From a virus, in the IMG/VR virus record IMGVR_UViG_3300028766_000014, positions 1 to 42,743 of that record: DNA of 42,743 nucleotides; one strand, written 5' to 3'. Every line of letters begins with the position of its first letter. The stretch's first letter is position 1. The notes below the pieces were generated by a model that was not told the origin of the DNA, ran no database searches, and saw nothing but the letters and a program-made list of their open reading frames with translations. Below are positions 2 through 20,272 of this stretch, in pieces. The translations under genes and the position numbers were made by a program.

Positions 2-130
2 CGGGCCGCCGCTGATGCCGCCGCCGCCGCCGCTGATGCCGCCGCTGATGCCGCCGTTCGGGCCGCCGCTGATGCCCACAAAGTAAAGCAAGAAGAAATC
101 TTTGTGCTCTATCTCCAGGATGAGGTTTAG
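2..130 (+). CDS. C-terminal end of an Ala/Asp-repeat protein (5' truncated)
   Basis: The reading frame enters from outside the window and stops at TAG 128-130, two bases before the next gene. The first 25 codons are an Ala-Ala-Ala-Asp low-complexity run made from repeated GCCGCCGCTGAT units. A normal-looking tail follows, ending in FVLYLQDEV. I prefer this frame because its stop abuts the next start. Two other frames are also open across the repeat: a Pro/Leu/Met-rich one on this strand and a Gly-rich one on the opposite strand. Function unknown. Confidence 0.5.
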   Translation, partial: RAAADAAAAAADAAADAAVRAAADAHKVKQEEIFVLYLQDEV

Positions 131-132
131 CC

Positions 133-1191
133 ATGCAAACAATCGTAAGAATTAAGTTCGGCAGTCATCTTTACGGCACTAGTACGCCTGAGTCAGATAC
201 TGACTATATGTCAGTCCATCTTCCATCTGCGCGTGAGATTTTACTGCAGCAAGTAGCAGATTCACTCGGTAATGATCGAAAGAACGCACGCGGCCAAAAG
301 AACGCACCTACTGACACTGATGACGAGAGCTACAGTCTGCAGCGTTACTTGCAGCTTCTTGCCGAGGGCCAGACTGTCGCGCTTGACATGCTATTCGCCC
401 CGTCTCTCGAGCTCGCTTCGCCACTGTGGCGCACTATCCAAGCTAACAAAGACAAGCTCATCACTAAGAAGAGCGCGGCGTTCGTCGGCTACTGTCGTAC
501 TCAAGCCAATAAATACGGTATCAAAGGTTCACGTGTCGCAGCAGCTCGTGCGGCAATGGAGTTCTTTGAGCACGCTGTAAGGCAGTCATTTACGCCTAGT
601 ACAGACCAAGTACTGCGCTACGCGGAGTCTTTGAAAGTGCTTTGTACTGATGAGCACACTAAGATAGTCGAGCAGAACACATACTTCCCAGATGGTAGTG
701 GCAAAGAAGAGCGGTTCTTCGAGTGCTGCAACCGTAAAGTGCCATTCAAGGCTTCCATCAAGACTGCTTACGAGATGTACAAGCACGTCTTTGACGAGTA
801 TGGAGCGCGGGCACTTGCCGCTGAGAAAGGCGAGGGAGTCGACTGGAAAGCACTAAGTCATGCCGTACGTGTAGGCCATGAGGCCCTAGAACTTCTGCAG
901 ACTGGCCTGATTACTTTCCCACTGCCTAATGCTGCAGACGTTCTTCACATCAAACAGGGCAAGGTAGTCTACCCTGTTGTAGCGCAGATGATAGAAGACT
1001 TACTTGTACGGGTAGAGGCAGCAGAGAAGATTAGCGTGCTGCGCACTGAACCTGATTGGGAGTGGATCAATGGGCTAGTAGCCTGGGAATACGGGACGCT
1101 AGCACATGACTGGGTGGCGGAACGCGTGCGCATAGCTGCTGGGCGCTCAGTGACAGTCGCGGATAGACTGGCGTTAAAAGGAAGACTATGA
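133..1191 (+). CDS. RlaP-like predicted nucleotidyltransferase (Pol beta superfamily)
   Basis: 352-aa protein. Its N-terminus has the Pol-beta nucleotidyltransferase signature GSHLYGTSTPESDTDY (residues 10-25), with the helix-turn Gly-Ser and the metal-binding Asp pair D22/D24. This matches the family of predicted nucleotidyltransferases (Pfam PF10127 type) named RlaP because members accompany RtcB RNA ligases in RNA-repair gene sets. The rest is helical. The start ATG follows a CAGGATGAGG ribosome site. An RtcB gene lies in the same window, which supports a joint role in RNA end repair or nucleotide addition. The actual substrate is inferred, not shown. Family assignment is fairly sure; biochemical role is not. 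Confidence 0.8.
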   Translation: MQTIVRIKFGSHLYGTSTPESDTDYMSVHLPSAREILLQQVADSLGNDRKNARGQKNAPTDTDDESYSLQRYLQLLAEGQTVALDMLFAPSLELASPLWRTIQANKDKLITKKSAAFVGYCRTQANKYGIKGSRVAAARAAMEFFEHAVRQSFTPSTDQVLRYAESLKVLCTDEHTKIVEQNTYFPDGSGKEERFFECCNRKVPFKASIKTAYEMYKHVFDEYGARALAAEKGEGVDWKALSHAVRVGHEALELLQTGLITFPLPNAADVLHIKQGKVVYPVVAQMIEDLLVRVEAAEKISVLRTEPDWEWINGLVAWEYGTLAHDWVAERVRIAAGRSVTVADRLALKGRL

Positions 1192-1217
1192 ACTAATCGA
1201 CGCCGCAGAAGAGACTA

Positions 1218-1499
1218 TTGCAGCTCTTGAGCAGTTGGAAGCCGTTCTCCGCCAAGTGCTGCTTCGATACTCCACAGCCACACACTGTGTGTCTAGGCGT
1301 AGGAGTAGTAACTGCTGTACAGCAGGACTCTAGCTTTGTGTTTGAGAACGCGAGCACACACCAAGTAACTTTCGTCCAAGAGCCTTTACCGCAGTTTGTC
1401 ACTTGGCAAGGTATGATGGCCGAAGTGACTTTGCATTTTGACGAGGGAACTCACAACCCGTCGCGTAGAAGCGCGGCGTGTGATAACAGGAGGCAGTAA
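1218..1499 (+). CDS. Unknown protein, gene start unclear (possible frameshifted gene 1188-1499)
   Basis: From about codon 15 this frame reads like real protein (GVGVVTAVQQDSSFVFENAS, then HQVTFVQEPLP), and it ends at TAA 1497-1499. The only in-frame starts are TTG codons (1218 taken). However, an ATG with a good AAGGAAG site sits at 1188, overlapping the stop of the previous gene, and it hits a stop after two codons. A second frame just after that ATG (1193-1260) gives a natural helix (LIDAAEETIAALEQLEAVL). Two compensating single-base shifts would join all of this into one gene, so it may be decayed or contain sequence errors. Function unknown. Confidence 0.45.
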   Translation: MQLLSSWKPFSAKCCFDTPQPHTVCLGVGVVTAVQQDSSFVFENASTHQVTFVQEPLPQFVTWQGMMAEVTLHFDEGTHNPSRRSAACDNRRQ

Positions 1500-1592
1500 A
1501 TAAATGCCAGACGTCGTCGTGTACTAAGAGCCAAACGTGAGCGGCGTATAGTTCAACGAGTGCTGAAGATTGTGGTTAAAGAGTCAGCATGA
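1500..1592 (+). CDS. Very basic 30-aa peptide, apparent ATA start
   Basis: A strong AGGAGG site at 1488-1493 stands 6 bases before ATA-AAT, opening a 30-codon frame that ends at TGA 1590-1592 inside the start of the next gene. The peptide (N-A-R-R-R-R-V-L-R after the first residue) aligns with the starts of the two neighbouring peptides MNSRQRRKLRR and MNSHQRRKLRR, supporting ATA as first codon. An ATG at 1504 in another frame gives only 7 codons. Arg-rich; RNA or DNA binding is possible but not shown. Confidence 0.5.
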   Translation: MNARRRRVLRAKRERRIVQRVLKIVVKESA

Positions 1593-1708
1593 ACTCCCGT
1601 CAAAGACGTAAGTTGCGGCGGTACCAAGATCGTGTGATGACTGGGTGGACGAAATTCTTAGATAAAGAGTTCGCGCTCTTCAGGGCAATTCAATACAAGG
1701 AGCTATAA
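1589..1708 (+). CDS. Small basic protein, MNSRQRR family (39 aa)
   Basis: ATG overlaps the previous stop (ATGA). The N-terminus MNSRQRRKLRRYQ is almost repeated in the gene at 1908, so these are paralogues. The C-terminal half is amphipathic (WTKFLDKEFALFRAI). Function unknown. Confidence 0.6.
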   Translation: MNSRQRRKLRRYQDRVMTGWTKFLDKEFALFRAIQYKEL

Positions 1709-1710
1709 CG

Positions 1711-1911
1711 ATGTTCAAGATTGTGAACACAGACAACTTTGGGAGTGACTATCCTGATGAGTCATTTATTCCACTGGCATTTTGGAAGAGAGAAAGCGCT
1801 CAGCGTGTAGCAGATGTCATTAATGCAGAGCTTTGTAACGATGAGAATGCTCCACGGTTTTGGAAAGTAGAACCAGCTGAGTACAGGCTCCAGCCGGGGT
1901 TTGAGCCATGA
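1711..1911 (+). CDS. Unknown small protein (66 aa)
   Basis: The start follows an AAGGAGCTATAACG ribosome site. The protein is acidic and aromatic-rich with no recognised motif; WKRESAQRVADVINAEL predicts a helix and the C-terminal part a strand pair. It lies between two members of the MNSxQRR peptide family. Function unknown. Confidence 0.65.
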   Translation: MFKIVNTDNFGSDYPDESFIPLAFWKRESAQRVADVINAELCNDENAPRFWKVEPAEYRLQPGFEP

Positions 1912-1982
1912 ACTCCCATCAACGACGTAAACTGCGACGTTATCAAGTCAATCAAGGGAGCCACCTAAATGATCGGCAATGA
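1908..1982 (+). CDS. Small basic peptide, MNSxQRR family (24 aa)
   Basis: ATG overlaps the upstream TGA. The N-terminus MNSHQRRKLRRYQ matches 1589-1708, but the peptide then ends after 24 residues inside the next gene. It looks like a shortened duplicate. The ribosome site of the next gene (AAGGGAG) is embedded in it, so translation may couple the two. Confidence 0.5.
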   Translation: MNSHQRRKLRRYQVNQGSHLNDRQ

Positions 1983-2178
1983 CTTTGTTACGACCATCGC
2001 GCTGAAGAGCAAGCGCTGCTCAGAATGTGGAGCAGCAATACCCAAAGGATCTGAGTACAAAGAGTCGCGGCACAAAAAGACTGGCAAGGTGACTAAAGTG
2101 CTTTGCATGAATGAGGACTGCCGACTGACATTTGACGACCGCATTTGGCAGGAGTTTGCGAGGAGGAATAGACATTGA
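1969..2178 (+). CDS. Small zinc-ribbon-like protein (69 aa)
   Basis: Two cysteine pairs, CSEC (about residue 17) and CMNEDC (about 47-52), separated by a basic stretch, have the layout of a small zinc ribbon. The C-terminus is FDDRIWQEFARRNRH. The next gene starts in a TTGA overlap. It is one of many small Cys-rich proteins in the first 7 kb. Partner unknown. Confidence 0.65.
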   Translation: MIGNDFVTTIALKSKRCSECGAAIPKGSEYKESRHKKTGKVTKVLCMNEDCRLTFDDRIWQEFARRNRH

Positions 2179-2429
2179 GAACCTTGATACTAGTTGATCG
2201 GCCAAGAGAGATACCCAGTTATATGGAGCCAGAAGACCGCTACAGCATGTCTACGCGTTTAGCTACTAGGCCCAATGGAGACGTGCTACAGTTCATGCTC
2301 ATTGAGAAGGGCGATGCATGGTTACAGCGCTTATGTGGGCAGATATTCGATACTGTGGAAGGATTGGAGCGCTTGACGCCAGAGCAGCGTGATCTCGTCA
2401 AGTTAACGATGAGGAGGATAGATGCGTAA
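2175..2429 (+). CDS. Unknown protein with TTG start (84 aa)
   Basis: TTG 2175 overlaps the previous stop as TTGA and is preceded by GAGGAGGAATAG, a strong ribosome site. The N-terminus predicts a strand (LILVDRP) followed by a charged segment; the C-terminus is helical (LTPEQRDLVKLTMRRI). No recognised family. Confidence 0.6.
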   Translation: MRTLILVDRPREIPSYMEPEDRYSMSTRLATRPNGDVLQFMLIEKGDAWLQRLCGQIFDTVEGLERLTPEQRDLVKLTMRRIDA

Positions 2430-2646
2430 GTTGCTAGTAGTATTGTGCGTAGTAGCACTACAGTACATAGGTATTGACGAGGTCAAACCGGCCTTGCCAC
2501 CTGTCGTGTACACAGCTCCAGTGGCTACTAAGGAGTCAGTAAGACCAGCGCTATCTGCACCAGTTTACGTAACTATGCTGCCAAGCACTAAGCAGCCAGA
2601 ACGTTCTGCATTAGAGCCACGCTTACGGAAGAGATCCGTACGATGA
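2422..2646 (+). CDS. Predicted exported protein with Pro/Ala-rich repeats (74 aa)
   Basis: An N-terminal signal-like segment (MRKLLVVLCVVALQYI) precedes about three loose copies of a unit containing VKPAL, VRPAL or RSALEP separated by about 20 residues. A longer relative with the same layout is at 10818. Export to the envelope is inferred from the N-terminus. Function unknown. Confidence 0.6.
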   Translation: MRKLLVVLCVVALQYIGIDEVKPALPPVVYTAPVATKESVRPALSAPVYVTMLPSTKQPERSALEPRLRKRSVR

Positions 2647-2984
2647 AAGTAGTCAATCGCGCTGACTTTCTAAAGCTGCCAGAAAGCACAGTTTATGCCA
2701 AAGGCAAGCCATGGTACTTTAATGACATCAATGTGAAGCATGATACGACTACTTCTGGTAATGACTGGTGGTTCATGGACTTCTGTTGGCCTGATACCGA
2801 GAAAGGCGACTTGGAGTCTTGTACGAACGTGTTGGAAGACTCGTTGAATAACGGCACGAGCTTTCCAATGATCAATGCAGTATGCCGCAATGGTATACAT
2901 GACTCAGAGGACCTGTTTCTCATATTCGAGAAGCCTGACTTGGACCGGCTTATTGCTGTGTTCCAGAAAGCGAAGGAGCTATGA
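2643..2984 (+). CDS. Unknown protein (113 aa)
   Basis: ATGA overlap at both ends places it firmly in the operon. It is rich in Trp and Asp (NDWWFMDFCWPD near the middle) and ends in a helix (DLDRLIAVFQKAKEL). I recognise no family. Confidence 0.65.
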   Translation: MKVVNRADFLKLPESTVYAKGKPWYFNDINVKHDTTTSGNDWWFMDFCWPDTEKGDLESCTNVLEDSLNNGTSFPMINAVCRNGIHDSEDLFLIFEKPDLDRLIAVFQKAKEL

Positions 2985-3421
2985 CATTCAAAGAGTGGTG
3001 GCAGCGCCATGAAAAAGTATGCAGTACGTCTATCAAAGCTACTGCAGAGCAAGCTTACAAAGCAGGCGCTGATAATCGTTATCCAACAGCCGCGGCATAT
3101 GAGGCAGTTTGCGCTGCGCTCCATCGTAGAGAAGATGAGCTGCAAGCATTAAGAGTAGAACCAAAGTTCACAGCTCAGCAAGTACTCAGTATTATGGCCG
3201 ACTGCCTAAAGAAGCCTGGTAATGTTCTAGATAACTTCGAGCAAGCTTTGCAGCCAAAGACTCCTGAAGACAGCGTAAAAGTTGTTTCGGGGTGTCATCC
3301 GAATGAATTTGCTTGGGTAGTCGAAAAGAACGGGGTAGAAATATCGTGGTTTACAGACAAACACATTGCAGAAACTTTACGAATTGGCTTAATCGCGCAG
3401 TTGAAAGAGGCGAAGAAATGA
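2981..3421 (+). CDS. Unknown protein with FTxxQV helical domain (146 aa)
   Basis: A central segment (YEAVCAALHRREDEL followed by FTAQQVLSIMADCL) resembles the next gene (WTAACRALDRKNDEM followed by FTVEQVRVAISNTL), so the two share a domain. The C-terminal part has beta character (EFAWVVEKNGVEISWF). Start ATG overlaps the previous stop. Function unknown. Confidence 0.65.
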   Translation: MTFKEWWQRHEKVCSTSIKATAEQAYKAGADNRYPTAAAYEAVCAALHRREDELQALRVEPKFTAQQVLSIMADCLKKPGNVLDNFEQALQPKTPEDSVKVVSGCHPNEFAWVVEKNGVEISWFTDKHIAETLRIGLIAQLKEAKK

Positions 3422-3951
3422 GCGAAATACTAAATGCAGAAGAATGGCTCTGTAAAGAGTGTAATACGGTGTTCCCCGGTCCACCGCAGGCGGGCGTATA
3501 TTGCATAATCTGCCCGAAGTGTGGAGGTGTTACTGGGCCCCGTGACCGCATTGAATACGAGCTGAACTTGGCTGCATTGACGGACAAGCTGCGTCAAGCT
3601 ACCGAAGAAAATAGAAAACTCGCCGAGCGTCCAACTATTGACGCTTGGACTGCAGCATGTAGAGCGCTCGACCGTAAGAACGACGAAATGAAAACGCGGT
3701 TTACAGTAGAGCAAGTTCGGGTGGCTATATCAAATACACTGTGTGCACACAAGTTCTTGCACGACTTAACCATACTTGGTATTGAGAAGCTGTGCAATGC
3801 TGTTTGTGCTAAACTGGCAAAAGAGCAGTACACTACTCGGCCCAATACAGTGCTTGGTGGCACAGACATTTTGCTCGACGGTGAGCTGATCGCCACACTC
3901 AGCCCGAAGTGCAAAGTAACACCAGAGGAGTTTATTAGGAGAGTAAAGTGA
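3418..3951 (+). CDS. Zinc-ribbon protein with FTxEQV helical domain (177 aa)
   Basis: I chose ATG 3418 because it overlaps the upstream stop as ATGA. The N-terminus has a zinc ribbon (CKEC, then CIICPKC). A coiled helix follows, then the FTVEQVRVAISNTL domain shared with 2981-3421 and, more distantly, with proteins at 9664 and 13089. The C-terminus has a strand-rich tail (DILLDGELIATLSP). Role unknown. Confidence 0.65.
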   Translation: MSEILNAEEWLCKECNTVFPGPPQAGVYCIICPKCGGVTGPRDRIEYELNLAALTDKLRQATEENRKLAERPTIDAWTAACRALDRKNDEMKTRFTVEQVRVAISNTLCAHKFLHDLTILGIEKLCNAVCAKLAKEQYTTRPNTVLGGTDILLDGELIATLSPKCKVTPEEFIRRVK

Positions 3952-4094
3952 CTTGTTTTGATGAAGATCCTAAGGACGAAAAGCCTTCAGGTCCATGTCC
4001 TATACCAAGCTGTGAAGGTAGTGTAACGTTCAACGAAGAAGAGCAGGTATGGGAGTGTGATACTTGTGAGTTCTTTATCCCAAAGGAGGATTAG
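3948..4094 (+). CDS. 48-aa zinc-ribbon protein (GTG start)
   Basis: GTG overlaps the previous stop (GTGA). The two Cys pairs CPIPSC and CDTC are spaced about 20 residues apart as in a zinc ribbon, between acidic ends. Its placement continues the coupled operon. Function unknown. Confidence 0.55.
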   Translation: MTCFDEDPKDEKPSGPCPIPSCEGSVTFNEEEQVWECDTCEFFIPKED

Positions 4095-4096
4095 GC

Positions 4097-4327
4097 GTGA
4101 AGTGCACAGCAGTAGGACTTGTCACGACTGAAGATGGTGTGCAAAGTGTTGCGTGCCAGCTAAACCAAGGCCATGGTGAGTGTCACCAAAGCGGTAGTAT
4201 TGAGGGGCTTGTGCACTGGACACCACCTGCATGCCCAATACAGGGCATACGAACAGTCTGTGATGGAACGCAGCCAAGCAATATGCAACAGTGTGCAAAG
4301 CACTGGAAGCTGAACAATTGCGCATGA
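4097..4327 (+). CDS. Cys/His-rich small protein (76 aa, GTG start)
   Basis: GTG 4097 follows AAAGGAGG. It contains a C-x-L-N-x-G-H type motif (CQLNQGHGECH) like the C..GHxGxH motifs in the protein at 7124, plus later cysteines, so it may bind zinc. Function unknown. Confidence 0.6.
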   Translation: MKCTAVGLVTTEDGVQSVACQLNQGHGECHQSGSIEGLVHWTPPACPIQGIRTVCDGTQPSNMQQCAKHWKLNNCA

Positions 4328-4461
4328 CTGCCGCAAGTATAGCACTAGACCTTCTTCCCGAAGTGCTCTATCGTCAGCGGATGTTCCAAGTATTTAAGGA
4401 CGCGAGTTTTATGGTAGAGATACTCAACGAGACTAAAAGGAAGATGGAGGATGCGAGATGA
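4324..4461 (+). CDS. 45-aa helical protein
   Basis: ATGA overlaps at both its start and its end. The protein is predicted mostly helical (FKDASFMVEILNETKRKMED). No family recognised; reality is supported by the perfect coupling pattern. Confidence 0.55.
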   Translation: MTAASIALDLLPEVLYRQRMFQVFKDASFMVEILNETKRKMEDAR

Positions 4462-4715
4462 CCTGGGAATCTTCTGGAACACTTATCGGCAGTCGAAGAG
4501 GCAACGCTTATGGCGATGTAGAAATAATCAGTGAAGCGGCGAGTCCAGCTTGTGCAGATCTCATTTGTCGGGCGCATAATCGTGAGATTGAAGAACTTCT
4601 AAAGCCTCGTCCTGAAGAAGGCGTTCCATATGTGCCAGCAAGGCCGTTTTTTAGGCCATATGCTTATAGAGCAGATCTCAGATCCAGTTCGACAGACGAC
4701 AGGAGACATAGATGA
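4458..4715 (+). CDS. Unknown protein (85 aa)
   Basis: ATG overlaps the previous stop and its own stop overlaps the next start. The N-terminal half is Gly/Ser-rich, the middle helical (ADLICRAHNREIEELLKP), and the C-terminus basic and aromatic (ARPFFRPYAYRADLR). Function unknown. Confidence 0.55.
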   Translation: MTWESSGTLIGSRRGNAYGDVEIISEAASPACADLICRAHNREIEELLKPRPEEGVPYVPARPFFRPYAYRADLRSSSTDDRRHR

Positions 4716-4954
4716 GACATGACTGTATAGTAGCCAAGTTCAAAGTTGGCGACAGAGTCCACTTCCCGTATGGTCGCAAGATTGGAACTATTACGCATGT
4801 CGAAGCACAAGTTATAGACCATCAAGATGGTCACTGTAAAGTGTTTATCCAGTTCTTGTACCGTATTACAAGCTATGAATGTGGAGAGAATCAGGTGAAG
4901 AAGGTGCGCCCAAGCTTTAGGAAGCCTCCATACAAGCCGAGCTACGCATTATGA
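4712..4954 (+). CDS. SH3/KOW-like small protein (80 aa)
   Basis: The segment FKVGDRVHFPYGRKIGTITH is the typical opening of small SH3-like beta barrels that bind nucleic acid or protein. Strands continue to the basic C-terminus (VKKVRPSFRKPPYKPSY). ATGA coupling on both sides. Assignment is by motif look only. Confidence 0.55.
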   Translation: MRHDCIVAKFKVGDRVHFPYGRKIGTITHVEAQVIDHQDGHCKVFIQFLYRITSYECGENQVKKVRPSFRKPPYKPSYAL

Positions 4955-5040
4955 ATCATGACCGCGCGGCCCTTGGGTGTATAATTGGACTAGTGGCGTT
5001 TTTCGTATTCTGCTTCCTAAAATTGTTTGGAGTGGACTAG
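4951..5040 (+). CDS. 29-aa single-pass membrane peptide
   Basis: ATG overlaps the upstream stop. After a short charged N-terminus, one hydrophobic helix (LGCIIGLVAFFVFCFLKLF) fills the peptide. It is a plausible inner-membrane microprotein. Confidence 0.5.
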   Translation: MNHDRAALGCIIGLVAFFVFCFLKLFGVD

Positions 5041-5041
5041 C

Positions 5042-5239
5042 GTGCACAATGACAACATAGGCGGCTTCACTAAAGCCAGAGAGATAAAGTGCCCGGCATG
5101 TGGACGTACATCAAGCGCAGAACTTTGGCGCGATGTAGACGTGCCTTGCGAAGTATGCGACGATCACGCAGGAACAGAGTGCCCGGTTTGTAAGTACTCA
5201 TTTGACTGTGTATGGGACCTAGAAAGGTTTGAGCAATGA
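5042..5239 (+). CDS. Double CxxC zinc-ribbon protein (65 aa)
   Basis: GTG 5042 is taken as start because it lies just after the upstream TAG; a TTG at 5027 is the alternative. Three pairs, CPAC, CEVC and CPVC, give a rubredoxin or zinc-ribbon look. Next gene starts in an ATGA overlap. Function unknown. Confidence 0.6.
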   Translation: MHNDNIGGFTKAREIKCPACGRTSSAELWRDVDVPCEVCDDHAGTECPVCKYSFDCVWDLERFEQ

Positions 5240-5445
5240 CACTAAGTATCTTGTGGACCTGCGTGATTGTAGCGGCCATTCTCGGTTTTATAATTGGCTC
5301 AATGCTAGGTCGTGTATCAAGACGTGAGCGTTATGCACTTGAGGCAATGCGAGTGCTGTTAGCGCGACCAGATGGGCACGATCTTAACGTGCCTATGATT
5401 GCATTTGAAATAGCTCGCAACATGATGCAGGAGGAGCTGAAGTGA
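5236..5445 (+). CDS. Small membrane protein (69 aa)
   Basis: The N-terminal helix ILWTCVIVAAILGFIIGSML spans the membrane. A basic stretch (GRVSRRERY) follows, then a soluble helical tail, so the tail is probably cytoplasmic. Coupled at both ends (ATGA, GTGA). Confidence 0.6.
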   Translation: MTLSILWTCVIVAAILGFIIGSMLGRVSRRERYALEAMRVLLARPDGHDLNVPMIAFEIARNMMQEELK

Positions 5446-5708
5446 AGAAGTGCTTTAGACTTGAAGTAAGTTGTGGTGAGCAGTTCTACTATGCGGCCAA
5501 AACAGCTGAACAAGCTTTGAAAGCATACGCAGATGACTATCCAGGTGAAGCTGCGCTTGCTTATGAGATGTCAGAAGCTGAGATGCTAGTGGGTAAGGTT
5601 AGCGTAAAAGATACCGACCAAGAGCTTGATGGTACTGTCACAACACTCAAAGCATTATTTGATGCGGCAGGTACTGGCACAACACTGCTCTGCTCTACTG
5701 CATTCTAA
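5442..5708 (+). CDS. Unknown acidic protein (88 aa, GTG start)
   Basis: GTGA overlap with the previous gene. The N-terminus CFRLEVSCGEQFYYAAKTAE suggests a strand-turn-helix; the rest is helical and acidic. No family recognised. Confidence 0.6.
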   Translation: MKKCFRLEVSCGEQFYYAAKTAEQALKAYADDYPGEAALAYEMSEAEMLVGKVSVKDTDQELDGTVTTLKALFDAAGTGTTLLCSTAF

Positions 5709-5719
5709 GGAGAACGACC

Positions 5720-6139
5720 ATGCCCAAAAAATTGCGTTTTCGTAAGCTCGACGGAAAGTTCAGCCATGATGGTACTTGCATAGTCAACACAGTAAGCGGC
5801 GAGGCTATTCCTGCTGATGAGCCGATCTTCATTTTACGTGGCAGAGATACGAGAGCACTAGCGGCCCTTGTGTCGTACAAGTATGACTGCGTAGTGACGG
5901 GGTGTAATCAGCTGCACCTTGACGGAATTGAGCAGGCTGTTCGTAAGTTTAAGTGGTTTAAAGAGCAGTCTCCTGAGCGAATGAAGCAGCCCGGCGTGAC
6001 GCGGCACCTGCGGTTAGAAGAAGTCTCCGATCCAACTTGTGAGCATGCACACCCAGCTCGCCGTCGATTGGCTGAAGGTGCAGGCAGCCCAGTGGTGACA
6101 TACTGTGCAGATTGTGGGGTAATGCTTGATGCGAGTTGA
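5720..6139 (+). CDS. Unknown protein with C-terminal Cys pair (139 aa)
   Basis: Start ATG follows AAGGAGAACGACC. The N-terminal half (AIPADEPIFILRGRD, LHLDGIEQAVRKFKWF) looks like a compact alpha/beta fold common in phage small proteins. The C-terminal part has C-x-H (CEHAH) and CADC, a possible zinc site. Function unknown. Confidence 0.65.
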   Translation: MPKKLRFRKLDGKFSHDGTCIVNTVSGEAIPADEPIFILRGRDTRALAALVSYKYDCVVTGCNQLHLDGIEQAVRKFKWFKEQSPERMKQPGVTRHLRLEEVSDPTCEHAHPARRRLAEGAGSPVVTYCADCGVMLDAS

Positions 6140-6293
6140 TTTTGAACTGTCGCATATTAGGCATAATCTAGTATCATCTGCGGCATTTGTTGTTGCCGCC
6201 TTTGTCAAATACGGTGATGCTGACTGCGCAGCTGGTGCGGCTAGAAGCTTAGCCCATAGAGTGTTCGAGTGGGTACCGGAGTTACGAGGATGA
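6129..6293 (+). CDS. 54-aa protein, tandem paralogue of next gene
   Basis: ATG overlaps the end of the previous gene by 11 bases. The C-terminal half GAARSLAHRVFEWVPELRG aligns with AANNAASLAHTILKWAPEVR in the next gene, showing a tandem duplication. Helical; role unknown. Confidence 0.55.
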   Translation: MRVDFELSHIRHNLVSSAAFVVAAFVKYGDADCAAGAARSLAHRVFEWVPELRG

Positions 6294-6472
6294 CCACTGA
6301 CATAGTGTTGAACATTAAGCTAGACGAGCTGCAGTGGATGTACGTGGAGTTTGCCTCTGGAGCCATTAAGAAAAACATTCAAGAAGGCGATGCAATTAAG
6401 GCTGCTAATAACGCGGCCAGTTTGGCTCATACTATTCTGAAATGGGCCCCGGAGGTGCGTTATGCGGATTAA
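6290..6472 (+). CDS. 60-aa protein, tandem paralogue of previous gene
   Basis: ATG 6290 is chosen for its ATGA overlap. A strand (IVLNIKLDELQWMYVEF) precedes the shared helical motif SLAHTILKWAPEVR. Function unknown. Confidence 0.6.
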   Translation: MTTDIVLNIKLDELQWMYVEFASGAIKKNIQEGDAIKAANNAASLAHTILKWAPEVRYAD

Positions 6473-6623
6473 TTGGACCCGCGCGATCTGCGCAGCTTTC
6501 TTCTTTGTAGAGCTTGGTAACTACTTCGGGTGGGACCATGTAGCAGATAAGTCAGCCGAAGAAGTCATTGCTACTGGAATCTATTTTCTTTTGATTAGCC
6601 TATCAGTGGAGCTAGAGAAGTGA
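6462..6623 (+). CDS. Small membrane protein with two hydrophobic helices (53 aa)
   Basis: The hydrophobic stretches TRAICAAFFFVELGNYFGW and VIATGIYFLLISLSVEL are separated by an acidic loop (DHVADKSAEE). Ends in a GTGA overlap with the next gene. Probably an inner-membrane hairpin. Confidence 0.55.
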   Translation: MRINWTRAICAAFFFVELGNYFGWDHVADKSAEEVIATGIYFLLISLSVELEK

Positions 6624-6826
6624 AACGCACCCCACTCGGCAAGCAAGTTCATGATAAGCAGAGCCTGACGATAGATGTGCTAGGGCGCAAGCCCGCCGTT
6701 ACTAAGCAGCTCTTTGACCGCCACCAGCCCATTGCAGGAGTACGAGGCGCATCGTGCACAAAGGGCAAGCACACCACGTGCTTTAAACTGAGTTGTAGCT
6801 GTGAGTGTCATGGAGGCGCTTTATGA
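6620..6826 (+). CDS. Basic protein with Cys/His cluster (68 aa, GTG start)
   Basis: GTGA overlap. The C-terminus carries CTKGKHTTCFKLSCSCECH, a dense Cys/His cluster similar in layout to the C-terminus of the next gene (CRASRHTACHG, then CTCSC). Probably a zinc knuckle. Role unknown. Confidence 0.55.
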   Translation: MKRTPLGKQVHDKQSLTIDVLGRKPAVTKQLFDRHQPIAGVRGASCTKGKHTTCFKLSCSCECHGGAL

Positions 6827-7137
6827 ATGGTAGTGCTAATGCAGAGCGCTGGCCGTGCCCTACTTGTGGTGCTGCAGTAGGAGAGCACTGCGTACATGCA
6901 CATGGTTCTTATTATGTTTGGGCACATCCAGCACGGTTGCTTGTGCAAGATAAGAATCTAGGGTGTAAGCTTCTAAAGTTGCTGGACGAAAAAGCCCGTC
7001 CTGGCTGGCGGCCTTCATCACATTGTAGAGCCAGCCGCCACACGGCATGCCACGGGCTTACCGCGCGTAACCACGGTCTTCCCGGACTGCCTTGCACCTG
7101 CTCATGCTACAAGGAGAAACGAAATGAAACAAGCTGA
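6823..7137 (+). CDS. Two-module zinc-binding phage protein (104 aa)
   Basis: ATG 6823 gives an ATGA overlap. The N-terminal module CPTCGAAVGEHCVHAHG, with a later HPAR, matches the common phage zinc-binding pattern CPxC-x-x2-GxxC...H..R. A C-terminal Cys/His cluster (CRASRHTACHG, CTCSC) resembles the previous gene, so the two share a knuckle. A shorter copy of the first module is at 9518. Confidence 0.65.
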   Translation: MNGSANAERWPCPTCGAAVGEHCVHAHGSYYVWAHPARLLVQDKNLGCKLLKLLDEKARPGWRPSSHCRASRHTACHGLTARNHGLPGLPCTCSCYKEKRNETS

Positions 7138-8023
7138 AGAGATTCTGAATCGTTGGCGGACTACACGGAATGTCACAGAGAGCGGCGCACTATTCACTGC
7201 GGTAGAAGAGCTCCGGAAGGTATTTAATGCCGGGCAGCAATGCATTGAGATGTATCAGCATCCATTCGCGCAGATAGCGCACTCACGGTGTAAACTCGAC
7301 GCGGGCCATGAAGGTATGCACAACTCCGGGACGTATAGGTGGCTTAATATGCCACACCCAGCCGCTGTTGAGATGCCCGAGATGTGCTCCAGTAAGGCAG
7401 CGGATGGCGCGACTGCCTGTGACTACACAAAAGGTCACACTGGCCCACATCGCAATGTACAAGCCTACAAAGAGTGGAAAGGGAGTACAGTGATGGCAGA
7501 AGAATTCTTGCGAGTGAGGGATCTTAAAGAAGTAGCCAAGCTGCGCAGCGCCATCAACGGCGCGGTGTTGGAGAACGACCGGCTGCGCGAAGAGCTACAT
7601 CGGATTGATGAAGTGCTTACGAAGACTACGAACATGAGTCGTATGGACGCCATCAATGAACTAGTGATGGAGCTTACTGAAGTGAAGCACGCGCTGGGCA
7701 GGTTCGCCATTGAACCGGCTTCGCAAGGCGTGGCTATGGTGGTGGGTCGTGTCAACGCGTTGGAGGCTGAGCTGGCCAAGCGCCCACCGGCTGTGGAGCC
7801 AATCCCGCTGGAAGAATTGGAGTACATGGCGACCACGGTGCGCAGCTTCTATGAGACGCACGGCTGCCGGGCCGCGTGGATGCAAGAAAAAATGGCAGAG
7901 GCACTGGAAGACGGTGGCAAGCTGCTGCGCCTGTTCAACGACGTGGAGCTGACCAAGCGTCTTCTGTCTGTGGCGGGCACGCCGTTGTCAGTCCTTATGA
8001 CGCTACAGACGGAGGACAAATGA
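7124..8023 (+). CDS. Cys/His N-terminus plus long coiled-coil protein (299 aa)
   Basis: Start follows AAGGAGAAACGAA. Two motifs of form C..(G/K)GHxGxH (CKLDAGHEGMH and CDYTKGHTGPH) at about residues 56-67 and 98-109 suggest repeated zinc sites. Residues 120-200 are coiled coil. The DNA visibly becomes richer in G+C part way through this gene (about 7480 onward), as if a second segment were joined here. Function unknown. Confidence 0.65.
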   Translation: MKQAEEILNRWRTTRNVTESGALFTAVEELRKVFNAGQQCIEMYQHPFAQIAHSRCKLDAGHEGMHNSGTYRWLNMPHPAAVEMPEMCSSKAADGATACDYTKGHTGPHRNVQAYKEWKGSTVMAEEFLRVRDLKEVAKLRSAINGAVLENDRLREELHRIDEVLTKTTNMSRMDAINELVMELTEVKHALGRFAIEPASQGVAMVVGRVNALEAELAKRPPAVEPIPLEELEYMATTVRSFYETHGCRAAWMQEKMAEALEDGGKLLRLFNDVELTKRLLSVAGTPLSVLMTLQTEDK

Positions 8024-9237
8024 ACATAACCATCAAGTGCAGTAAGTGCGGTACTGAGAACGAAATCACCAGTGCCCTAGCGGCTCCCATGGTGGAGGCC
8101 GTCAGGGCAGAGATGCAGGCCGAGATCACGGAGGCCAATGCGGCGAAGGAAGAAGCTTTTCAGCTCATAGAGCGCCGGGTACATGATTTGGACTCTGACG
8201 TAGCGGCCAAAGTAGCTTCTGCTAAAACGGAGATCGAGCGCAAGGCCCGTACGGATGCTAAAGCCGCTATGGAAGCCGACTTTGCCGCTGAGCAAGACCA
8301 CGCGGTACGCGCACAGCAGGAGGCGGAGGAACTACGCGCTAAGCTCACCGTCGCCCAAGCCGCGCAAGCTGAGGCGCTGAAAAAGGAACGCCTGCTGGCG
8401 GACCGCGAGCGTGAGTTGGAGCTAACAGTGCAGCGGGGCATAGGCGACGGCATAGAGCTAGCCCGCTGCCAAGCACAGCAGGCAGCCGAAGACGCCCAGC
8501 GGCTTAAACTGCTGGAGCGAGACACAGTGATTGAAGGACTGCAGAAGAAGATAGCTGAACTGGCGCAGCGTGCAGAGCAGGGCAGCCAGCAACTACAGGG
8601 CGAAGTGCAGGAGCTAGACATTGAGCAGGCGCTGCGTGCCAAGTTCCCACAGGACACAGTGACCGAGGTTGGCAAGGGCGTAAATGGAGCAGACGTCGTG
8701 CATCATGTATTTGCACCTGACGGCAGTGAATGCGGGCTGATCTTGATAGAGTCCAAGCGAACGAAAACTTTCAGCGCACCGTGGCTTGCAAAGCTGCGGC
8801 AGGACGGACGTGCCTCACACGCTGACATTTTGGTGCTGGTCACCACAGCACTGCCCAAAGAGATCAGCACGTTTGACGAAGTGGATGGGGTGTGGGTCAC
8901 TTCGCCGGAGTACGCTCTGCCATTGATGGCCATACTGCGTGAGGCTTTGCTTCGCGTTCACGCGGCCAAGCTGGTCCAAGAGGGCGTGGCTACTAAGTCC
9001 GAAGTCTGCTACGCGTACCTGACTGGGCCACGATTCAAGCAGCGTGTGGAGGCGGTTGTAGAGGCCTTCAAGACGCTGGGCGATGAGCTGGACAAGGAGA
9101 GGCGTAGTATGACGAAGCAGTGGGCCAAGCGCGCCGAACTGCACGAGCGGGCGCTGCTAGGCACCGCTGGGTTGGTGGGCGACCTGCAGGGCATGAGCGC
9201 AGCGCTGCCCGCTGTGGCCGGACTGGAGTTGGAGTAG
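8020..9237 (+). CDS. DUF2130-family nuclease-like protein (405 aa)
   Basis: ATG 8020 overlaps the previous stop. The layout matches DUF2130 (PF09903): an N-terminal CxxC pair (C7, C10), a long coiled coil (residues about 25-190), then a restriction-endonuclease-like core with LILIESKRTKTFSAPWLAKL near residue 243, followed by ADILVLVTTALPKEI and DGVWVTSPEYALPLMA. The Glu-x-Lys pair is the likely catalytic E-x-K. Family members are predicted PD-(D/E)XK nucleases of unknown target. In this phage it could cut host or rival DNA or act in recombination; that is inference. Family call is firm. Confidence 0.85.
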   Translation: MNITIKCSKCGTENEITSALAAPMVEAVRAEMQAEITEANAAKEEAFQLIERRVHDLDSDVAAKVASAKTEIERKARTDAKAAMEADFAAEQDHAVRAQQEAEELRAKLTVAQAAQAEALKKERLLADRERELELTVQRGIGDGIELARCQAQQAAEDAQRLKLLERDTVIEGLQKKIAELAQRAEQGSQQLQGEVQELDIEQALRAKFPQDTVTEVGKGVNGADVVHHVFAPDGSECGLILIESKRTKTFSAPWLAKLRQDGRASHADILVLVTTALPKEISTFDEVDGVWVTSPEYALPLMAILREALLRVHAAKLVQEGVATKSEVCYAYLTGPRFKQRVEAVVEAFKTLGDELDKERRSMTKQWAKRAELHERALLGTAGLVGDLQGMSAALPAVAGLELE

Positions 9238-9521
9238 TGGAGTACCACCCCAGTAACGTCAACCAGACTAGGGACGACTTTCTAACCAGACCTTTAGAAG
9301 TCACTGACTTGCGACTGTGGGACAACAAAACGTCTGCGGACATTCTTGCAGACGTCAACATACTGCTAACTGGCACGTGGACCGCCGAGTCTGAGTGGAT
9401 GCCGGGCAGCGTGCTGATTCCCATGTCCACGTACACACTGCTGTGGGGATGTCCAGTTGTTAGGCTGCTGCTGCGCAAGCGTCGTACACGGCGGCCTAAA
9501 CGGTTCACGAGGAAAGCATGA
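9237..9521 (+). CDS. Unknown protein with very basic tail (94 aa)
   Basis: GTG 9237 shares a base with the previous stop (TAGTG). The N-terminal half is acidic; the C-terminus is strongly basic (LLLRKRRTRRPKRFTRKA), suggesting nucleic-acid contact. Start is uncertain because an internal ATG near 9400 would give only the basic end. Confidence 0.5.
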   Translation: MEYHPSNVNQTRDDFLTRPLEVTDLRLWDNKTSADILADVNILLTGTWTAESEWMPGSVLIPMSTYTLLWGCPVVRLLLRKRRTRRPKRFTRKA

Positions 9522-9667
9522 AACCTCACAAGCACTGCCCACGCTGTCCACGGTACGGCGCTATGCCGGGCCACAACTGCTTAGGAAGTAACGCCCAGAC
9601 GCTGCAAGCGCCGCACCACGAGCGAACGTTCAAAGGAACATACCAACCCAAGAGGATGATACGATGA
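9518..9667 (+). CDS. 49-aa zinc-binding peptide
   Basis: ATGA overlaps lie at both ends. HCPRCPRYGAMPGHNC followed by HHER has the same C-x2-C, GxxC, H..R pattern as the N-terminal module of 6823-7137, so it is a minimal version of that zinc finger. Confidence 0.6.
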   Translation: MKPHKHCPRCPRYGAMPGHNCLGSNAQTLQAPHHERTFKGTYQPKRMIR

Positions 9668-9891
9668 TCACAATTGAGCAGGCGGACGCGGTTGTGTACA
9701 AGGCGCTCTGTGAGCACTACTGGAGTGGCGTTGTGCCCATACCGGATGGTTTCAAGCAGATTCGGCAGTGCGTGCGGGATGAGCTGCGGCGGCTGTCAAA
9801 CGCGTCCGGAGAAGATCTAAGTAACCGCGTGCGCGATTTGGAGACCACCATTCTGACTCACGTGGCACTGCCGCTACCATCGGCGCGCTGA
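9664..9891 (+). CDS. Small protein with EQ/HYW helical domain (75 aa)
   Basis: The segment TIEQADAVVYKALCEHYW with a following DGFKQIRQCV resembles the C-terminal domain of 13089-13967 (TREQVDEAILKTFREHYW, EEFRRHVSDL) and more loosely 2981 and 3418. It appears to be a stand-alone copy of a domain this phage uses several times. Function unknown. Confidence 0.6.
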   Translation: MITIEQADAVVYKALCEHYWSGVVPIPDGFKQIRQCVRDELRRLSNASGEDLSNRVRDLETTILTHVALPLPSAR

Positions 9892-10421
9892 GGGCAGAGA
9901 AAGCCTGCAGTCACAGTCAATGGGCCCAGTGCCTGGACGGCACTATGGAGTGCAGCCTGTGCAAACAGCGGATGTACCCCGACGAGCCACGCGGCGCCCT
10001 GTATAACGGTGTGCCCATGACTACCATCTGTAATTCTAACAAGTGGCACGCACTGTGCGGCGACTTGGGCTTGACTGACGACCCCAGTATCACCAGTGTG
10101 GCCGACGTGCATATCAAGCTGAACGAGAAACAGGAGCAGTACGCTGCTGAAAAGACCGCCGGGCTGCAGCGGGACTTGACGGCCGCACGACGTATCAGTA
10201 TCATCAATGCCCAAGCCCGTGAGATAGTCAATCTACGGCAGGAGAGTTGGGCCTTGCAGGGCCGCAATGAGCGTCAGGAGGCCGACATCTGGCGGATGCT
10301 TAAAACCATTGAGGAACTGAAGACAGAGGCCGGTGAACCCCGCGTGATCGTGTTCAAGGACCCACGCAACCGCCCGCTCAGAGAATTGGCAGACATGGTG
10401 AGGGGGGCCGTACAGAAATGA
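9888..10421 (+). CDS. Zinc-finger plus coiled-coil protein, probable CTG start (177 aa)
   Basis: The frame is open from 9825 with no ATG, GTG or TTG until ATG 9945, yet the stretch before 9945 encodes a good zinc motif (ACSHSQWAQC, then CSLC). CTG 9888 overlaps the upstream stop as CTGA, matching the ATGA and GTGA style of its neighbours, so I take it as the start; ATG 9945 (158 aa) is the alternative. The rest is coiled coil (residues about 75-150). No clear ribosome site, so coupling is needed. Confidence 0.55.
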   Translation: MRAEKACSHSQWAQCLDGTMECSLCKQRMYPDEPRGALYNGVPMTTICNSNKWHALCGDLGLTDDPSITSVADVHIKLNEKQEQYAAEKTAGLQRDLTAARRISIINAQAREIVNLRQESWALQGRNERQEADIWRMLKTIEELKTEAGEPRVIVFKDPRNRPLRELADMVRGAVQK

Positions 10422-10606
10422 ACCTCAAGGCAGTGCGGCTATGGAACGACACTTGCATGGCAATGGTGGACCACTGCAGCGACATTGGCCTAGCACCGCA
10501 AGGTGAGGGCGAGGACACCGAGGCGCTGGCCGGGTTGGAGCTGGCTAAGCGAGTGCTGAAGCTGGAAGCAGAGCTGGCACAGCTACTGAAGGAGAAGGAC
10601 AGATGA
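10418..10606 (+). CDS. Small coiled-coil protein (62 aa)
   Basis: ATGA overlaps lie at both ends. The C-terminal helix LAKRVLKLEAELAQLLKEKD is a heptad coiled coil. Function unknown. Confidence 0.6.
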   Translation: MNLKAVRLWNDTCMAMVDHCSDIGLAPQGEGEDTEALAGLELAKRVLKLEAELAQLLKEKDR

Positions 10607-10731
10607 ACTTCATACGCCTGACGCTGTCTGCTTTGCGGATACAAGTGTGCCGCCCGTCGTGGACTAGCGAGCGCTGTGTGGACGCGGCGTTTGAGAGGCG
10701 CATAGAAAAGCTGCGCGCGCGGAGGAAATAG
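10603..10731 (+). CDS. 42-aa protein, paralogue of 14281-14427
   Basis: ATG overlaps the previous stop. WTSERCVDAAFERR matches WSSTRCVDAVELRR in the gene at 14281; both follow a hydrophobic or helical N-terminus and end basic. This is one of several domain pairs linking the 9.6-10.7 kb and 13.1-14.4 kb blocks. Confidence 0.55.
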   Translation: MNFIRLTLSALRIQVCRPSWTSERCVDAAFERRIEKLRARRK

Positions 10732-10740
10732 TGTACAATT

Positions 10741-10821
10741 ATGCCTGCGTGGCTCACAATTGGAATGCGACTACCGCGCCGTACCCATGGTGCGGTAGGA
10801 AGCGAAAGGAACACACAATGA
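10741..10821 (+). CDS. Possible 26-aa leader peptide
   Basis: ATG 10741 lies just after a TACAAT box (10734-10739) and runs to a TGA that overlaps the next start as ATGA. The peptide has no recognisable features, so it is supported only by the coupling pattern. It may be a leader for the exported protein at 10818, or chance. Confidence 0.25.
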   Translation: MPAWLTIGMRLPRRTHGAVGSERNTQ

Positions 10822-11111
10822 GAATCATCATCCTAACAGTGCTGGCACTGGCCAGCATCGCCGCCGTAGCACAGGACGTGGAAGACGTCAAACCCGCCTT
10901 GCAGCCTTTGGCCGTACAACAGGCGCGCACACCCACCACTGAGATCCACGCCGCTCTTCTGCAGCCGTTCACCATTCAGCAGGTTGGCATGGCACCCAGT
11001 GAAGTCCGTGCGGCGCTACAACCGTGGACCGCCCAGCAGCCAACCGTTACAGAAGCCGAAGTGCGCGGCGCCCTAGAGCCTTGGCTGCGTGTACGCGTAC
11101 CACGGAAGTAG
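10818..11111 (+). CDS. Predicted exported repeat protein (97 aa)
   Basis: A clear signal peptide (IIILTVLALASIAAVAQ, likely cleaved after Ala-Gln) is followed by four units of about 20 residues ending in PAL.P, AALLQP, AALQPW and GALEPW. Start ATG follows GAAAGGAACACACA. It is a longer paralogue of 2422-2646. Envelope location is predicted; function unknown. Confidence 0.65.
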   Translation: MRIIILTVLALASIAAVAQDVEDVKPALQPLAVQQARTPTTEIHAALLQPFTIQQVGMAPSEVRAALQPWTAQQPTVTEAEVRGALEPWLRVRVPRK

Positions 11112-11114
11112 ACC

Positions 11115-11372
11115 ATGGACAGCATACGAGCCACACTGGAAGCGGCGCGCGTCAAGTTTGCGGCGCCGTACGCCTACGATGTAAGCCAGCTTCTGTACGA
11201 CGCCATCAAAGCATGGCTGCCCACCGCCACGAAGTCTTTGGAGCACAGCCTCGCCACGGTGACGCTGCACATGGACCCTAAACTGCAGGGCGGTGAGTTC
11301 CGGGCTTGCACATGCACCGCCAAGGAACTGGAAACAGAAGCCGCTAGTATAGCAGAACCAGCAAAGGAGTAG
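11115..11372 (+). CDS. Unknown protein (85 aa)
   Basis: Starts four bases after the previous stop. Mostly helical (VSQLLYDAIKAWLPTATKSL), with a late CTC motif. No recognised family. Confidence 0.55.
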   Translation: MDSIRATLEAARVKFAAPYAYDVSQLLYDAIKAWLPTATKSLEHSLATVTLHMDPKLQGGEFRACTCTAKELETEAASIAEPAKE

Positions 11373-11377
11373 TTGAA

Positions 11378-11755
11378 ATGGCAGAATTCAAGGATTTGGT
11401 GGGAGTAACACTCGCGTCCATAGTGGGCGGTGAAGTGGGAAGCGATCGGATCACCTTTGAGGCTCAAGATGGTCGCACTTGGTGCATGTACCACAGCCAG
11501 GATTGCTGCGAAGTAGTTCAGGTTGAGGATATAGCTGGTGATCTGAATGATTTGATTGGAGTGCCAATTACGCAGGCAGAGGAGTCCAGTAATTCAGAAG
11601 ACCGGAAGCAAGGAGAATCCATGGTGGGTGAGGAGTCATTCACATGGACCTTCTACCGTATAGCTACGGCCAAAGGACTAGTGGTTATCCGTTGGCTTGG
11701 AGAATCCAACGGATACTATTCTGAAAGTGTGGACTTTAAGTCGGTGCATGGATGA
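11378..11755 (+). CDS. DUF7448-like phage protein (125 aa)
   Basis: The pattern LVGVTLASIVG, then ITFEAQDGRTWCMYHSQDCC and VEDIAGDLNDLIGVPITQAEE, is the hallmark of a widespread small phage beta-protein family (DUF7448). Start follows AAAGGAG at suitable spacing. The family has no established function. Confidence is in the family, not the role. Confidence 0.75.
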   Translation: MAEFKDLVGVTLASIVGGEVGSDRITFEAQDGRTWCMYHSQDCCEVVQVEDIAGDLNDLIGVPITQAEESSNSEDRKQGESMVGEESFTWTFYRIATAKGLVVIRWLGESNGYYSESVDFKSVHG

Positions 11756-11918
11756 CCCCTACGCCGTTCTGCTCGTGCGCATGACAGACACCGACACCAC
11801 CATCCGCAAGCGGTTCCATCAGCTTGCCGAACACCAACACCCGGACCGTGACGGGGCCAACGGCAAGCCCGGCCCGCAGTGGTTCGCCATCGCACAGGAA
11901 AGGATTAAGAAGGCGTGA
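11748..11918 (+). CDS. Short J-domain protein (56 aa)
   Basis: DPYAVLLV, then IRKRFHQLAEHQHPDRDG, carries the DnaJ helix II/III arrangement with the essential H31-P32-D33 triad that stimulates Hsp70 (DnaK). The protein ends soon after helix III, much shorter than DnaJ. A longer relative with a Cys-rich tail is at 20687. It may redirect host DnaK. ATG 11748 overlaps the previous gene by 8 bases. Confidence 0.7.
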   Translation: MDDPYAVLLVRMTDTDTTIRKRFHQLAEHQHPDRDGANGKPGPQWFAIAQERIKKA

Positions 11919-12268
11919 TTAACCAAGCAGCCGCCCGTCAGTGGGCAGAGGACACATTCGGCATGATGTGCATGGACAAGCATGAGCGGGCCATGCGGTT
12001 CTTGGAGGAGGCGTTTGAGGCGGCACAGGCGGCGGGTGTTACCGACAAAGACGCCGTGTGCCTGTGGCGCGTGGTGTACGACAAGCCTGTGGGCGAGTTG
12101 GCGCAGGAGATCGGCGGCGCTCTGCTGACGCTGGCCCTGCTGTCTGAAGGCGCTGGGCTGGACATGGAATGGGCTGGCGACACTGAGTTCCTGCGTGCGC
12201 GCACCATGCCGCGCGACTACATAAAGGCCCGCCACGCGGTAAAAGTGGCTGCCGGGGTGGCCCGGTAG
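11915..12268 (+). CDS. MazG-like NTP pyrophosphohydrolase-fold protein (117 aa)
   Basis: GTGA overlap. RFLEEAFEAAQAAG (E31-E32-x2-E35) and GELAQEIGGALLTLALL match the MazG/dUTPase-like all-alpha NTPase fold common in phages. The second metal site has Gly-Gly where classic MazG has an Asp, as in many phage members, so activity is uncertain. Last gene before a promoter at 12279, so probably an operon end. Confidence 0.7.
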   Translation: MINQAAARQWAEDTFGMMCMDKHERAMRFLEEAFEAAQAAGVTDKDAVCLWRVVYDKPVGELAQEIGGALLTLALLSEGAGLDMEWAGDTEFLRARTMPRDYIKARHAVKVAAGVAR

Positions 12269-12275
12269 GCAAACT

Positions 12276-12284
12276 TGCTATAAT
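12276..12284 (+). promoter_or_regulatory. Extended -10 promoter
   Basis: TGCTATAAT: a perfect TATAAT (12279-12284) with the TGn extension, in the 48-base gap before the hexapeptide gene. No good -35. A ribosome site AAGGAGATG follows at 12300. Confidence 0.6.
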
Positions 12285-12316
12285 GGTGTAGCAGCACTAC
12301 AAGGAGATGTGCACAA

Positions 12317-12955: not shown

Positions 12956-12982
12956 GGAGTCTACCATGATCACAGGGATGCT

Positions 12983-13096
12983 GTGATAAGCTTACTGAGC
13001 CCGGAAAGGCGTTTGATTGGTATGCTTTCTGGACGTGAGCTACTACTACACACGGAGTACGGGCCGTACGTACACAGGAGAATGAAACATGACTGA
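12983..13096 (+). CDS. Possible 37-aa protein coupled to a six-codon leader
   Basis: A strong AAGGAG site precedes ATG 12966, which encodes only six residues (MITGML). GTG 12983 overlaps that stop as GTGA and opens a 37-aa frame (ISLLSPERRLIGMLSGREL) that runs into the next gene. Either a leader couples translation, or one base is missing and the two parts are one gene. Low confidence. Confidence 0.35.
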   Translation: MISLLSPERRLIGMLSGRELLLHTEYGPYVHRRMKHD

Positions 13097-14284: not shown

Positions 14285-14427
14285 CATTTCTTATAATGAC
14301 CTTGGCAGCTGTGTGGGAGCAGATTAAGCACCCATGGTGGTCATCTACTCGCTGTGTAGATGCGGTAGAGTTGCGGCGTGTGTACCGGATGATGCCACCA
14401 AAGAAGGAGCGTACAAAGTGCGATTGA
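14281..14427 (+). CDS. 48-aa protein, paralogue of 10603-10731
   Basis: ATGA overlap. A hydrophobic N-terminus (FLIMTLAAVWEQI) is followed by WWSSTRCVDAVELRR, matching the gene at 10603, and a basic tail. Last gene before the rtcB promoter. Confidence 0.6.
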   Translation: MTFLIMTLAAVWEQIKHPWWSSTRCVDAVELRRVYRMMPPKKERTKCD

Positions 14428-14449
14428 TGGCTTTGCAGTCGTGATGAGG

Positions 14450-14455: not shown

Positions 14456-14462
14456 TAAGCTC

Positions 14463-15661: not shown

Positions 15662-15679
15662 TAGATGTATAAGGACACT

Positions 15680-20271: not shown

Positions 20272-20272
20272 T

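Follow-up and report, generated by a model that had tools for sequence, protein, structure and literature searches.

A packed array of small genes, several encoding predicted zinc-knuckle proteins, in a phage genome related to PW916 and AXL_3

Packing and zinc-knuckle content of the array

The window, that is the whole stretch of 42743 nucleotides (nt) analysed here (IMG/VR virus record IMGVR_UViG_3300028766_000014), carried 97 genes in the first gene call, all of them on the + strand. This contribution deals with an array of 21 small open reading frames (ORFs) on that strand, named g1 to g20 and g11b, which tile positions 1969-7137 (5.2 kb). Counted from 1969 up to 8023, the 21 junctions comprise 14 overlaps of 1-4 nt, four overlaps of 8-14 nt and three gaps of 1-11 nt. 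None of them (0/21) leaves a gap of more than 15 nt, compared with 32 of the 72 junctions between 8020 and the right end of the window (Fisher test, 4e-5). The initial annotation described the genes as nearly all translationally coupled. This is correct as a description of the anatomy, 18 of 21 junctions being overlaps, and the overlap is a feature seen at the level of the sequence only. Chance ORFs as the source of the array are ruled out by the tiling and the overlaps.

Proteins with at least two C-x2-4-[CH] knuckles were taken as zinc candidates. By this rule seven of the 21 array proteins qualify (genes starting at 1969, 3418, 3948, 5042, 5720, 6620 and 6823) versus two of 59 other small genes, with a Fisher p=9e-4 that is qualified by the post hoc choice of the array region; a permutation test on the best run of 21 genes gave P=0.017 for the knuckle count. 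Looser knuckle rules weaken the contrast (9/21 vs 6/59, p=0.0023; 9/21 vs 9/59, p=0.013). The base rate in other phage loci, determined with a Cys-neutral gene caller and with the window's own virus left out, is 198 of 1697 small genes, and at this rate the binomial chance of at least seven in 21 is 0.008 for one preselected run. The density of zinc knuckles is high though not unique: the window has seven such proteins in 5.2 kb, and the loci G011 and L031 have seven and eight in runs that span 9 and 15 kb, respectively. Phages close to that of the window likewise carry small zinc-candidate proteins. The about ten Cys/His-rich proteins initially proposed for the array are thereby reduced to seven by rule, or to eight if the product of 4097 is admitted by eye; ten are reached only with 7124-8023 and 8020-9237, which lie beyond 7137.

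Four array proteins (genes at 2422, 4951, 5236 and 6462) are hydrophobic. They correspond to the four membrane microproteins of the initial annotation and are indeed membrane-like, with the reservation that the 2422 product, judged by eye, may be secreted rather than membrane-anchored. Such proteins are not enriched in the array (4/21 vs 10/78, p=0.34).

Individual genes and their domains

Membership of most array genes in known families was rejected, as library scans returned almost no matches. A scan of 19 of the 21 genes (all except 4951 and 6126) against PHROGs gave one clear match, g4 to phrog_11827 (near full length; expectation value (E) 3.3e-10), and a marginal one for 6805-7137 (E 9.5e-4, unknown function). 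The only match above cut-off in Pfam, scanned with 15 of the 21 genes, was that of g20 to the phage zinc finger domain PF24623. NCBIfam (8/21 genes) and PADLOC (6/21), the latter a catalogue of defence and not of anti-defence proteins, yielded nothing above cut-off. Relatives of solved structure were sought for two of the zinc genes, with none for g20 and only weak matches for g12.

The array starts with g1 (1969..2178; 69 amino acids (aa)), a C4-type zinc candidate (CSEC...CMNEDC) with a weak match to Zn_Ribbon_1 below cut-off (E 0.049). No relative was found for g2 (2175..2429, 84 aa), whose TTG start overlaps the g1 stop. The hydrophobic N-terminus (KD17 1.97) of g3 (2422..2646, 74 aa) would make the protein anchored or secreted; its faint likeness to 10731-11111 (E 0.24) is not significant. 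For the phrog_11827 protein g4 (2643..2984, 113 aa; unknown function), Cellulophaga phage phi17:1 encodes a distantly related protein (E 2e-8) and Pseudomonas phage Noxifer a weakly matching one (E 0.03); neither g4 nor g20 found relatives in viral contigs when used as queries. While no clear relative of g5 (2981..3421, 146 aa) was found, its sequence shows a faint, non-significant likeness to the middle part of g6 (3418..3951, 177 aa), which has a putative N-terminal CxxC...CxxCxxC zinc ribbon. It is followed by the 48-aa zinc ribbon candidate g7 (3948..4094), with a 41% relative in the close phage G010, and by g8 (4097..4327, 76 aa), which contains seven Cys, four His and a CQLNQGHGECH element; having one knuckle by rule, g8 is a plausible eighth zinc candidate by eye. 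Searches found no relative of g9 (4324..4461, 45 aa) and no clear relative of g10 (4458..4715, 85 aa) or g11 (4712..4954, 80 aa). The microprotein g11b (4951..5040, 29 aa) has one hydrophobic span (KD17 2.81), g12 (5042..5239, 65 aa) has three CxxC pairs with weak zinc-finger matches of low specificity, and g13 (5236..5445, 69 aa) has a hydrophobic span at its N-terminus (KD17 2.65). Next come g14 (5442..5708, 88 aa; no relative found) and g15 (5720..6139, 139 aa), in which an IPxDEPxFILRxRD domain (residues ~13-91) is combined with a zinc-like C-terminal tail, CEHAH...CADC. The genes g16 (6126..6293, 55 aa, TTG start, added by hand) and g17 (6290..6472, 60 aa) are tandem paralogs (phmmer E 1e-4), and g18 (6462..6623, 53 aa) is hydrophobic and membrane-like (KD17 2.01). 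The last two genes are g19 (6620..6826, 68 aa), with the knuckle C-x4-H-x2-C-x4-C-x-C-x-C-H and relatives in the phages G008, G010 and G011, and g20 (6823..7137, 104 aa), in which the PF24623 domain is followed, at the C-terminus, by a knuckle like that of g19 but with a longer spacer.

Outside the array, g21 (7124..8023, + strand, 299 aa) has two C...GHxGxH elements, one recognised by pattern and one by eye, and g22 (8020..9237, + strand, 405 aa) combines an N-terminal CxxC with DUF2130 (PF09903); relatives of g22 occur in close phages, 55-59% identical in G004 and G005 and one in G010. Upstream of the array, a 41-nt near-repeat (1588-1628 and 1907-1947, 83%) encodes MNS(R/H)QRRKLRRYQ, the copy at 1907-1947 falling within a shorter ORF. 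It possibly reflects a local duplication around the gene 1711-1911, whose 66-aa product has a 46% relative in the more distant phage L046.

Over residues 13-91, g15 shares 47% identity with cyanobacterial phage proteins (3 records) that are also placed among small genes. A profile scan for the IPxDEPxFILRxRD domain recovered 36 viral and 7 bacterial loci (L120-L165), a count that is bounded by the patterns used and includes a few mutual copies; with identical sequences removed, the 43 loci gave 40 rows and, together with g15, an alignment of 41 distinct sequences. The bacterial loci may be prophages. In the locus L161 a Cys-rich head precedes the domain in the same ORF, possibly an artefact of start codon choice. 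Members of the domain family gave only weak noise in Pfam (12 sequences), no credible match in NCBIfam (8) and none in PHROGs (4), and no mention of four of its peptide words was found in the literature. The domain, being without a credible family match among the members tried, is a useful by-product of this analysis.

Of 34392 distinct ORFs in the loci examined, 7 contain the motif C-x(3-5)-H-x2-C-x(2-30)-C-x-C-x-C, versus 0-1 in five shuffles. The motif's short form is present in g19 and in one protein each of G008, G010 and G011, its long form, with an NHG element, in the C-terminus of g20 and in one protein each of G008 and G011. The presumed metal ligands are constant across these relatives and most other residues vary; the final His is replaced by Tyr in g20. 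An Arg-rich stretch precedes the knuckle in the g19 relatives. Beyond these phages the knuckle was found neither in viral contigs (searched with one pattern) nor in 47 phage records, and g19 had no further relative among 50,697 phage records. An extra match in G023 (A3, E 0.001) among the 47 records is weak and was not counted as a relative, and the matches of the sets A2 and A3 in their own members there arise by construction. A phage-wide g19 family was rejected, only the same three relatives recurring in the viral contigs, with the one pattern used, and in the 47 records, and none appearing among the 50,697. To judge from these comparisons, the predicted CxxxxHxxC...CxCxCH knuckle is lineage-specific, novel but small. 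The match of g20 to PF24623 (Phage_zn_bind_8) scored 32.7 bits against a gathering threshold of 24 and covers residues 12-45 of a 110-aa reading from 6805. According to Pfam, this domain is a phage zinc finger with putative DNA binding; g20 adds to it the C-terminal CxxxxHxxC...CxCxC knuckle.

These features bear on the idea that the array consists mostly of transient ORFs of little function that are gained and lost via recombination at short repeats. The tandem paralogs g16/g17, the near-repeat 1588/1907 with its truncated copy, the small number of relatives and the low codon scores of some genes would be expected in that case. We nevertheless consider it improbable: the genes tile with short overlaps, many starts are preceded by stretches that resemble ribosome sites (by eye), and the knuckle ligands have stayed constant in four phages in which most other residues differ.

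Kinship, conservation and counter-defence candidates

Among named phages, the nearest relatives of the polymerase (26094-28007) in tblastn are those of Pseudoxanthomonas phage PW916 (38.8% identity) and Stenotrophomonas phage AXL_3 (38.1%). In viral contigs, among the 80 of 107 matches listed, three relatives are 100% identical when rounded (99.8% in another comparison), eight show 59-74% and the others 34-45% identity. The window is probably part of a larger phage genome, because two of the eight relatives at 59-74% come from records that measure 100 and 105 kb; PW916 and AXL_3, in contrast, have only 47-48 kb. No capsid, portal or terminase gene was identified within the window. An exonuclease-like gene (28883-29623) matches annotated exonucleases of PW916 and AXL_3, and the gene order of the window (ligase, polymerase, exonuclease-like, helicase, later thymidylate synthase and deoxycytidylate (dCMP) deaminase) is the same in AXL_3. 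Polymerase similarity and the order of the replication module together indicate kinship to PW916 (Mesyanzhinovviridae) and AXL_3 (Axeltriavirus). For the Mesyanzhinovviridae, extensive horizontal gene transfer within the family has been described (PMC11946847).

A nucleotidyltransferase gene (133-1191, phrog_388), an RtcB-type RNA ligase gene (14463-15650) and the NARP1-like pair described below had no tblastn match in PW916 (26.8-kb stretch) or AXL_3 (34-kb stretch). The nucleotidyltransferase is related to NrdC.11 proteins of T4-like phages and has a 58% relative in G009, and a relatives search with it gave nothing useful; the RNA ligase has a 59% relative in G010. A single tRNA-Met (CAT) gene lies at 34996-35073. 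A GC-rich short tandem repeat at the extreme left end of the window (5-73) could be an artefact of the contig end or else a coding repeat.

A tblastn comparison with four close phages (G008-G011) found relatives for 2 of 20 array genes (g7 and g19), 9 of 22 listed genes of 7124-22135 and 18 of 33 genes of 22136-42574, the replication part. The counts omit g11b and an ORF at 1218; G010 (39 kb) and G011 (38 kb) are fragmentary, and absence from them is no proof of loss. The difference between the array and the replication part is significant (p=0.0013). A special turnover hot spot at the array was considered and rejected, as the contrast vanishes among equally small genes; special turnover is unsupported because gene size accounts for much of the low share of relatives. 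As far as these alignments tell, the array shares its poor conservation with the small genes of this phage in general. No second copy of the array from the same virus was recovered, since none of the three records whose polymerase is 99.8-100% identical matched 1100-9300.

The array proteins could alternatively assist the phage in replicating, recombining or transcribing its DNA, as zinc-knuckle binders of nucleic acid that act on phage DNA or on RNA polymerase. The match of g20 to a putatively DNA-binding domain, the Arg-rich stretch ahead of the knuckle in g19 relatives and the location of the array block before ligase, polymerase and helicase are consistent with such a function. Unlike core replication genes, however, the array genes have few relatives in close phages, even if gene size explains much of this, and we regard a helper role for the array as rather unlikely.

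The most suggestive counter-defence genes of the window lie at 17363-20075, where a phosphoribosyl pyrophosphate (PRPP)-synthetase-like gene (17363-18187), a 139-aa gene (18184-18603) and a Namat-like gene (18600-20075) follow each other on the + strand. Against the chains 9w5x/9w5w, Namat structures of phage SpbetaL1 (PMC12774641), the 18600-20075 product scored 557 bits; it reached 448 bits with 9ke8 and at most ~207 bits with the remaining Nampt chains listed. From residue 392 it reads GSYTYQHVTRD, in agreement with the Namat signature GSX-phi-X-phi-X-phi-TRD save for His at position 7; this position of the selectivity-clamp helix is described as one of two that contact adenine and as usually Tyr or Phe (PMC12774641). 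The PRPP-synthetase-like product may be Adps or an ordinary PRPP synthetase. We assume that 17363-20075 encodes a probable NARP1 pair, which would rebuild nicotinamide adenine dinucleotide (NAD+) from ADP-ribose and nicotinamide, an anti-defence function. This putative pair, ~10 kb from the array, is the firmest counter-defence lead in the phage and provides the only recognisable candidates found in the window.

Its presence further along the same strand is one reason to ask whether the array is a dedicated counter-defence island, in which most genes would inhibit host immunity and be expressed first after injection. Position and packing of the array would suit this, and a precedent is Gp11 of PhiNM1, a small early membrane protein that inhibits host growth (PMC11237401). 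Yet no array protein resembled a known inhibitor in PHROGs (19/21 genes), Pfam (15) or NCBIfam (8), a weak counter-argument given that these are general libraries and none is dedicated to anti-defence, and knuckles are common in small phage proteins anyway. We consider a dedicated island improbable. The expectation of the initial annotation that such arrays often hold host-takeover and anti-defence factors is reasonable by place in so far as these factors can occur in regions of this kind, the genes being packed, on a single strand, poorly conserved and part of one block with the replication genes; a link of any array gene to an inhibitor did not emerge from the scans.

The array as a probable run of small accessory genes

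In our view the array is probably a run of small accessory genes of an ordinary kind, located in the left, probably early, gene block of a phage related to PW916 and AXL_3. The array genes would be expressed together from one upstream promoter, and zinc knuckles would allow proteins of 50-100 residues to fold without a large core. Most of the proteins presumably work one by one, each as a small protein that binds nucleic acid or protein of the host or of the phage, and would be useful on some hosts and non-essential. Takeover or counter-defence factors may be among them, but nothing in the array hints at a dedicated zinc-based system.

Several observations weigh against this reading or its parts. 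Zinc binding by the array proteins is a motif-based prediction, and shuffling of the residues within each protein still yields a mean of 3.6 knuckle proteins in 21 (P=0.011). At least seven knuckle proteins per 21 small genes are found in 3 of 39 phage loci including this window; the 39 are those with at least 21 small genes and include repeated copies of one virus. The difference in relatives from the replication part shrinks among proteins of up to 180 aa (2/20 vs 9/23, p=0.039), and among those of up to 120 aa (array 2/17, 7124-22135 4/9, replication part 4/17) array and replication part no longer differ (p=0.66). AlphaFold2 models of 5720-6136 (g15) and 6823-7134 (g20; 3-row alignment) both had a mean predicted local distance difference test score (pLDDT) of 41, too low for use. 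The genes at 6126 and 6823 were missed by the first gene caller and added by hand, and the codon scores of 2175, 4097, 4458, 6126, 6620 and 6823 are matched by 14-26% of minus-strand ORFs; low codon scores of several array genes are perhaps due to cysteine codons being rare in the training set. Promoter-like sites in the scan numbered 7 versus 11.9 expected, with no excess of promoters or terminators.

A bolder version would make the array a modular counter-host cassette, in which knuckles were repeatedly added to small binding domains to give a renewable set of effectors, and would make DEPxFILRxRD an unrecognised phage-wide effector or regulator family. The knuckle would then stand alone in proteins of the g19 type and be joined to a zinc finger in g20, to the DEPxFILRxRD domain in g15 and to larger proteins in g6, g21 and g22. 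We give very little credence to this proposal. If several array proteins did hit host defences, zinc-knuckle microproteins would represent a general inhibitor format. As a region, the array read as accessory genes is ordinary and of a common kind, and it supplies, as a by-product, a well-bounded set of ~20 small genes that can be screened singly.

Early or accessory runs of tiny genes in phages are single-stranded in orientation, overlapping, mostly of unknown function and poorly conserved, and the array is the same in all these respects. Annotations show comparable stretches of small genes near the relatives of g4 and of g15. Compared with other runs of tiny genes, the array stands at the high end for zinc-knuckle proteins (7/21 in 5.2 kb), without being unique.

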